A DNA stretch of 64,000 nucleotides from Brucella pseudogrignonensis (GTDB lineage: Bacteria > Pseudomonadota > Alphaproteobacteria > Rhizobiales > Rhizobiaceae). The stretch lies in the NCBI RefSeq assembly GCF_032190615.1, contig NZ_JAVLAT010000001.1, positions 2,054,501 to 2,118,500 of the forward strand, in the 5' to 3' direction. The notes under the pieces are model-generated. The model was given only the letters and a program-made list of their open reading frames with translations, did not search any database and had not been told where the DNA came from. Below, piece after piece: positions 2,988 through 3,809 of this stretch. A program made the translations under genes and the position numbers. The number at the start of each line of letters is the position of its first letter. Position 1 is the stretch's first letter.

Positions 2988-3809
2988 ATGCCAATTTCAT
3001 TGAGTGTACCTTTGAATTCATGGATGTCAGCGGTTGATTCAAACAGATCTCTTGCCAAAATGACGATTATGGGAACCCATGACTCTTGCGCCTTCCATGA
3101 GATATTGGGAATTGGTAGGTGTCAAACGATCAGCTTGTCGGATCAACTAAATAAAGGCGTTCGCTATCTTGATATCAGATGCTGTGTTTCAAAGGGTTCT
3201 TTTGAAATGCACCACGGTAGCATCAATGAAAAATTGAATTTCGATGATGTTATGAATGAACTTCGGAGCTTCCTGAATAAGAATCCAAGCGAAACATTTT
3301 TCATGAGGATAAAACAAGAATATTCCAGCGTATCAAATGCAGAGTTCATGAGCATTTTTAATGGGAGATACGGGAATTATCACAGGTTTATGCTATTTAT
3401 CGATACGCGCAATGGCACGGGTAGTCTTTCAGAGGCACGAGGTAAAATAGTTGTAATTTCGAATGTGGCTACAATGCCCGGTATTCAGTGGAATGATATA
3501 ATAAAGCAAGACAATGACAGTGAGGATAGTCCCAAGAGAAAATGGGCTGACGTTGTTAGTTTACTTGGTGCGGCTAGTTCGGATCACAAAACGTCGGATA
3601 GCCAATATTATCTCAATGGATTCAATGCGCATGATGCGACAGATACTTCATTTTCGATAAAGAGCATGGCTTTTTATATAAAAGACCAGTTTTTAAACTT
3701 TCTGAGATCTGATGTCGTTGCCCCAAATTATTATGGAATACTGGCCACGGACTATATCGATTTATATTCAGACGATAATATGAGATACATATTATATAAC
3801 AATAATTAG
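2988..3809 (+). CDS. PI-PLC X-domain phosphodiesterase, no signal peptide
   Basis: The 273 residues carry the hallmarks of phosphatidylinositol-specific phospholipase C, which cleaves the phosphodiester bond of inositol phospholipids by two-histidine catalysis. MGTHDS holds H31 and D32. GVRYLDIR (residues 57-64) ends in R64, and MHHG (74-77) supplies the second catalytic His, probably H76. NPSETFFMRIKQEY follows, as in Bacillus PI-PLC. Secreted PI-PLCs have a signal peptide; this protein starts about 30 residues before the first His with no hydrophobic leader. Base composition is clearly lower in GC than the neighbours (22 of 60 on line 3241 against 34 of 60 on line 4681), which suggests acquisition by transfer. 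The RBS is weak (ggtga). The substrate is not proven. Confidence 0.85.
   Translation: MPISLSVPLNSWMSAVDSNRSLAKMTIMGTHDSCAFHEILGIGRCQTISLSDQLNKGVRYLDIRCCVSKGSFEMHHGSINEKLNFDDVMNELRSFLNKNPSETFFMRIKQEYSSVSNAEFMSIFNGRYGNYHRFMLFIDTRNGTGSLSEARGKIVVISNVATMPGIQWNDIIKQDNDSEDSPKRKWADVVSLLGAASSDHKTSDSQYYLNGFNAHDATDTSFSIKSMAFYIKDQFLNFLRSDVVAPNYYGILATDYIDLYSDDNMRYILYNNN

Follow-up and report, generated by a model that had tools for sequence, protein, structure and literature searches.

A 64,000-nucleotide stretch of the Brucella pseudogrignonensis genome (contig NZ_JAVLAT010000001.1, forward-strand positions 2,054,501 to 2,118,500; hereafter the window) carries, at positions 2988..3809 on the + strand, a gene whose product is predicted from its sequence and a structural model to be a metal-independent phosphatidylinositol-specific phospholipase C (PI-PLC) of the Bacillus/Listeria type. 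On that footing the protein is well identified as a bacterial PI-PLC, and the gene, referred to as the PLC gene herein, is a true, rare and acquired one. The novel part is the clade to which the protein belongs, which is leaderless and has a changed substrate pocket. Our best explanation is an acquired PI-PLC that is released by a non-Sec route and acts on eukaryotic inositol lipids; we infer both the substrate and the delivery, and consider the chances of this reading to be about even.

The window gene encodes a predicted bacterial-type PI-PLC without a leader

The open reading frame (ORF) is unbroken from its ATG start to its stop codon and encodes 273 amino acids. Searched with PF00388, the X-domain model proposed as a check on the original prediction, the product scored 45.3 bits against a curated cut-off of 23.1, and a scan of the whole genome with the same model found it to be the sole match. 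A search of NCBIfam with the protein returned no family; in a search of PDB sequences the top matches were Listeria PI-PLC (E 2.9e-22 and 5.2e-21), followed by the PI-PLC of Bacillus and Staphylococcus. The original prediction had described a two-histidine X-domain core made up of H31, D32, R64 and an adjacent pair of histidines, and alignment bore this out, as the catalytic set of the bacterial metal-independent enzymes falls on H31, H76, R64, D32 and D255 of the window protein, with K109, E111, R151 and D175 also kept. Because the relative P0005 has a tyrosine at position 75, H76 is the invariant member of the histidine pair. H31 and H76 presumably form the acid/base pair; R64 would sit at the phosphate, and the histidines would be supported by D32 and D255. 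The predicted model of the protein has the TIM-barrel fold of bacterial-type PI-PLC on which the original prediction had staked its claim. A TIM-barrel PI-PLC in a Gram-negative is a feature shared with the calcium-dependent PI-PLC of Pseudomonas (5fyr, 5fyp); membership of that calcium-dependent class was rejected for the window protein, the fold score against it being far lower.

The PI-PLC enzymes that have been studied carry a signal peptide, which is not part of the formal definition of the family, and that of Listeria monocytogenes is secreted by the Sec pathway. In agreement with the original prediction, no signal peptide was found in the window protein by our hydropathy rule, which takes the most hydrophobic 12-residue stretch at the N-terminus and is not a trained predictor (maximum mean 0.94), and the stop-free frame around the ORF, 289 codons in length, reaches just 16 codons beyond it. 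By the same rule, none of the 28 next-best database matches has a leader (P0002–P0029, two of which are fragments; P0001, the window's own cluster, was excluded), their maximum being 1.34, and 41 of the 65 later matches (P0030–P0094) score at least 1.5.

The protein belongs to a leaderless clade with a changed pocket

At the place of Y200 of Bacillus PI-PLC the window protein has D177, and the aromatic residue under the inositol ring is lacking; N213 stands at the place of S234. An aromatic at the Y200 place is usual in the bacterial type of PF00388 and lies outside the family's formal definition. The role of Tyr200 under the inositol ring in bacterial PI-PLC is described in PMC9572076. The window protein thus differs from the PI-PLC of Bacillus cereus/thuringiensis and Staphylococcus aureus by these two replacements and by being leaderless, and from that of L. 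monocytogenes (1aod, 2plc), which keeps the tyrosine (QDDY), by D177 and the missing leader. In an alignment of the window protein with 52 of its 94 database matches, aspartate occupies the Y200 place in all 10 rows of the window's clade and in none of the 43 others, 41 of which have Y, W or F.

The clade was examined in a tree of 103 rows, built by a quick method with Shimodaira-Hasegawa-like approximate likelihood ratio (SH-aLRT) support, that includes 17 of the 81 loci L004–L084, several of them copies of database matches, and omits three rows lacking the motif and six matches that are short, are odd or belong to the window itself. The window protein groups with P0002–P0010, Falsochrobactrum ovis and Photorhabdus khanii in 12 rows, two near-duplicates included, with a support of 100; the proteins of P. 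khanii and Pseudomonas sp. PDM25, both within these rows, are leaderless by the hydropathy rule like that of the window. A wider set of 35 rows (support 88), which also holds duplicates, adds Xenorhabdus, Myroides, a metagenome-assembled genome (MAG) of the Enterobacteriaceae, P0038, and P0012 and P0013. Named organisms among the 28 leaderless next-best matches include Photorhabdus, Xenorhabdus, Pseudomonas and Myroides, and among the literature listings we found no published work on leaderless PI-PLC-like proteins of P. khanii, Pseudomonas sp. PDM25, Xenorhabdus or Myroides.

Members of the wider set share the missing leader and depart from the window protein in other respects. The Xenorhabdus and Myroides proteins have an extra C-terminal region and, unlike the window protein, most of them keep the tyrosine (P0025 aligns without it). 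By eye, this region in P0014, P0016, P0020 and P0022 (Xenorhabdus, Myroides and others) amounts to about 150 extra residues with similar tryptophan-containing repeats; it had no Pfam match above cut-off in P0014 and P0022, and P0022 gave no clear PDB match. P0012 and P0013, which are 63% identical to each other, have a leaderless PI-PLC half that is 41% and 37% identical, respectively, to the window protein and keeps the tyrosine, together with a further domain that the window protein does not have. Residues 11–123 of P0012 match the 13.6 kDa insecticidal crystal protein 4jox (E 6.2e-13; PDB search with P0012 only), and a Pfam search left the N-terminal domains of both proteins without a name.

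A host-directed role is plausible

In the reading that we prefer, H31 and H76 would catalyse the cleavage of an inositol lipid, yielding a cyclic inositol phosphate together with a lipid product. The protein would leave the cell by lysis, in vesicles or by another non-Sec route and attack inositol lipids or glycosylphosphatidylinositol (GPI) anchors in a eukaryotic host, such as an invertebrate or a protist. In other bacteria, enzymes of this kind cleave inositol lipids in cells of the animal type, and as a secreted protein PI-PLC is well known to contribute to the virulence of Gram-positive bacteria. The original prediction put forward a role directed at a host or protist, which is plausible and stands at that strength; the best evidence for it is the company of the wider clade, with its entomopathogen genera and its fusion to an insecticidal-protein-like domain. 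Its other suggestion was a non-Sec route, as the lack of a signal peptide also implies. If the reading is true, a leaderless, pocket-altered branch common to Brucellaceae and entomopathogenic bacteria would represent an uncharted lipid-cleaving factor.

Several observations weigh against this reading. D32 is not fixed, being present in 41 of the 53 rows of the family alignment and replaced by asparagine in the clade members P0008 and P0010. With aspartate at the Y200 place and asparagine at that of S234, the classical specificity for phosphatidylinositol may be lost. The members from Xenorhabdus and Myroides belong to a different sub-clade from that of the window protein, and F. ovis, which is named for sheep, is a misfit with an insect-only role. 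No specific route of delivery was identified: the genome has no match to the type VI secretion system sheath gene (PF05591, one marker only), and delivery by that system was rejected.

Because the inositol-stacking tyrosine is aspartate throughout the clade, the earlier suggestion that the enzyme may instead cleave another phosphodiester has gained weight. It is conceivable, if unlikely, that the protein is a cytosolic phosphodiesterase whose substrate is soluble or internal (glycerophosphoinositol or inositol cyclic phosphate, say), one possible purpose being the use of inositol as food. All 28 next-best matches being without a signal peptide would fit such an enzyme, as would the altered inositol pocket and the lone position of the gene in the window and, to judge from ORF starts, at the seven listed loci of relatives. 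However, no inositol-use gene was recognised beside the PLC gene when the first 70 residues of the unannotated ORFs were inspected by eye, and in one relative the fusion to a domain resembling an insecticidal protein suggests extracellular work.

The changed pocket can also be given a more specific meaning, which we regard as doubtful: the clade would be a specialised leaderless PI-PLC branch, its pocket adapted to a substituted inositol lipid such as a GPI anchor by the replacement of Tyr with Asp next to inositol O6 and of Ser with Asn at O3; as a host-interaction factor consisting of a single gene, it would pass between Brucellaceae and gammaproteobacteria associated with invertebrates. GPI anchors carry glucosamine on inositol O6, and such an anchor would fit the pocket because the aspartate could pair with the amine of that glucosamine.

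The gene is rare and departs in composition from its neighbours

The guanine-plus-cytosine (GC) content of the PLC gene is 0.383, whereas the 53 other ORFs of 150 or more amino acids in the window, which were chosen mechanically and without curation, average 0.523 (standard deviation 0.021). The PLC gene has the lowest value (z -6.55), and its codon adaptation is likewise the lowest among the same ORFs (z -3.47), as expected from the claim that its composition differs from that of its neighbours. The upstream part of the insert (2856..2987, + strand) comprises 132 bases of 27% GC in which, by eye, GGTGAA at 2979–2984 is a possible ribosome site; a scan of the + strand upstream of the gene gave no site and no clear promoter. 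Among the relatives, the AT-richness is strong in the Enterobacteriaceae MAG (L006, gene 0.31 vs locus 0.453) and slight or absent in Photorhabdus (L005, 0.36 vs 0.392), Xenorhabdus (L007, 0.35 vs 0.384; L008, 0.37 vs 0.406, a short frame; L014, 0.34 vs 0.399) and Myroides (L010, 0.36 vs 0.362; L012, 0.37 vs 0.385). The Xenorhabdus innexi copy (L008, 1522–2106) looks broken or misread, its PLC match (1609–2106) overrunning a 133-residue frame (1522–1923).

The PLC protein was found in 2 of the 120 genomes searched, the other carrier besides our own being F. ovis. PF00388 exceeded its cut-off in one of 394 genomes of the family, a sample to which F. ovis does not belong, with three others below the cut-off. 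A profile of the clade matched 4 of 385 genomes of the class, only the match in our own genome being full length, and 7 of 398 genomes of the phylum (its own, three strong at E 2e-58, 3e-45 and 2e-31, and three weak). When 456 confirmed places were reduced to the best 80, F. ovis was also the sole alphaproteobacterial title, and a single-sequence search of the genome_contigs collection gave no PLC match. The original prediction that such a gene is rare in alphaproteobacteria is therefore upheld, and its own test of presence and codon use went the same way, the gene being absent from most relatives examined and odd in its codon use.

The gene was probably imported together with the 3' end of bspB

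The left neighbour of the PLC gene (2292..2855, + strand, 187 residues) is an orthologue of bspB (NF047381, 378.8 bits, cut-off 350), and its product is 89% identical to a Brucella gallinifaecis protein named BspB. Beyond it lie holC, one gene away, and pepA, two genes away, such that the order is pepA, holC, bspB and PLC. On the right stands a convergent ABC-F ATPase gene (3836..5758, - strand), named in the original prediction and by eye. One of the flanks given there needs a correction, since it is bspB, and not holC, that directly adjoins the gene on the left. Describing the gene as inserted among housekeeping genes was also an understatement, as the neighbour is bspB and F. ovis uses the same site, with the order pepA-holC-bspB-PLC-ABC-F and 60% identity between the PLC proteins.

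Compared with the empty site, the extra segment spans 2856..3832 (ends approximate). It is absent from the sister species G005 and also from G003 and G002; in G005, the nearest species (BspB 95% and part of ABC-F 99.8% identical), 17 bp replace the insert. The junction was examined at 30 of the 35 loci of the genus and holds a PLC gene in two, our own (L085) and F. ovis DSM 26720 (L112, genome G025), with no match in the other 28, one of these, L102, being a stretch in which we did not find the right neighbour. By eye, the same gap between bspB and the ABC-F gene holds a transposase-like ORF in L094 (G026), other sequence in L110 (G022), and a small membrane-protein-like ORF in L105, L107, L113 and L114. 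As the extra DNA between these convergent genes differs from species to species, the gap is a permissive site.

The 3' end of bspB (2601..2842, + strand) is the probable left part of an imported recombination tract. It differs from G005 at 49 of 242 bases (20%), as against 157 of 2330 (about 7%) in 271–2600 (Fisher p 1.2e-10); on the right side, 3836–14639, 813 of 10,804 bases differ. The most diverged of 645 sliding windows starts at base 2591, the series beginning at base 271 and so omitting a more diverged stretch before base 200. Since 41 of the 49 differences lie at third codon positions, the tract resembles the allele of another species and not a decaying gene. When compared with the 10 other species of a 12-row flank clade, the window is farther than G005 in all 10 after base 2600 and in none before it, and therefore the change seems to lie in the window and not in G005. 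The nearest foreign PLC proteins, P0002 (81%) and P0003 (73%), are encoded on contigs of 307,095 and 70,843 bases, and BspB proteins of 90% and 89% identity are encoded on contigs of likewise 307,095 and 70,843 bases. We infer that these are the same contigs, and count the coincidence as support for import from a congener with the same arrangement. Judged by these comparisons, the 3' end of bspB and the PLC gene probably entered the genome together by homologous recombination from an unsampled congener of that arrangement. Such a likely spread beside bspB would offer a concrete picture of a lone gene moving without its own mobile element.

Several observations weigh against such an import. The intergenic stretch before base 200 is even more diverged (0.719), and no recombination tract is visible to the right of the insert. 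When all 28 other species are taken, the window is the farther of the two from 16 of them after base 2600 and from 6 before it, so the distant species are without the shift. P0004 (71%) and P0005 (67%) have no such BspB counterpart among the 30 BspB matches listed, and no close match to the tract was found among the species compared.

The presence of the PLC gene changes twice on the flank tree (29 rows counted, G006 left out), on which F. ovis falls outside the remaining species at midpoint rooting. This position, the shared intergenic site and the placement of both copies within one clade would suit a gene that is ancestral to the group and was lost in most species. We nevertheless consider an ancestral origin rather unlikely as compared with a recent gain, since two gains would explain the tree whereas one old gain would, by our reading, have to be followed by four or more losses, the divergence of the flank speaks for import, and the gene is still AT-rich. 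That the acquired gene is non-functional or drifting, as its rarity and AT-richness might suggest, deserves hardly any credence, given an intact frame, kept catalytic residues and, in comparison with F. ovis, 164 of 273 identical residues and a nonsynonymous divergence (dN) of 0.30 alongside a synonymous divergence (dS) that was not computable and is read as saturated.

Proximity to bspB and the VirB system

The genome has a VirB-type conjugation/secretion cluster on a 166-kb contig (C4, 32,891–43,772; L121 6892–17773), where the VirB4, VirB10 and VirB11 models score above their cut-offs, VirB9 just below and VirB2, VirB6 and VirB8 more weakly; VirB4 is also present in G005. In B. abortus, BspB is translocated in a VirB-dependent manner (PMC3738490). 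With these genes in the genome and the PLC gene adjoining a BspB orthologue in the same direction, the PLC protein might be a translocated effector of the VirB type IV system, yet this we regard as very unlikely. bspB is present in all 35 genomes of the genus, and adjacency alone therefore does not make the PLC protein an effector. Relatives in other genera sit among different genes, and the VirB genes are on another contig than the PLC gene. F. ovis keeps the PLC gene at the same site without a VirB4 match, which makes VirB unlikely as a required route. For the non-Sec release that we favour, these last two points are equally unhelpful; lysis, vesicles or a cytosolic role remain.

Mobile, phage, plasmid and defence origins

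Carriage by a mobile element was rejected, as the insert contains no other ORF of at least 80 amino acids, so no integrase or transposase ORF, and only imperfect AT-rich inverted pairs (75% and 78%) near its ends. A phage origin was rejected with no PHROGs family at E 1, five records in the phages collection (Listeria and Staphylococcus, about 29–30% identity) and one locus in viral_contigs (33% identity). No plasmid source was found, all 29 plasmid records being below 60% identity and the best-covered ones at 30–32%, and a role in anti-phage defence was rejected with no PADLOC family at E 0.1 or better. The viral_contigs locus (L084) holds a 492-residue open frame with the distant PI-PLC match. 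Elsewhere in the window, the ORF at 37452–37967 (+ strand) has the second lowest GC content (0.44) of the ORFs of at least 150 amino acids, and its codon adaptation is low (0.66).
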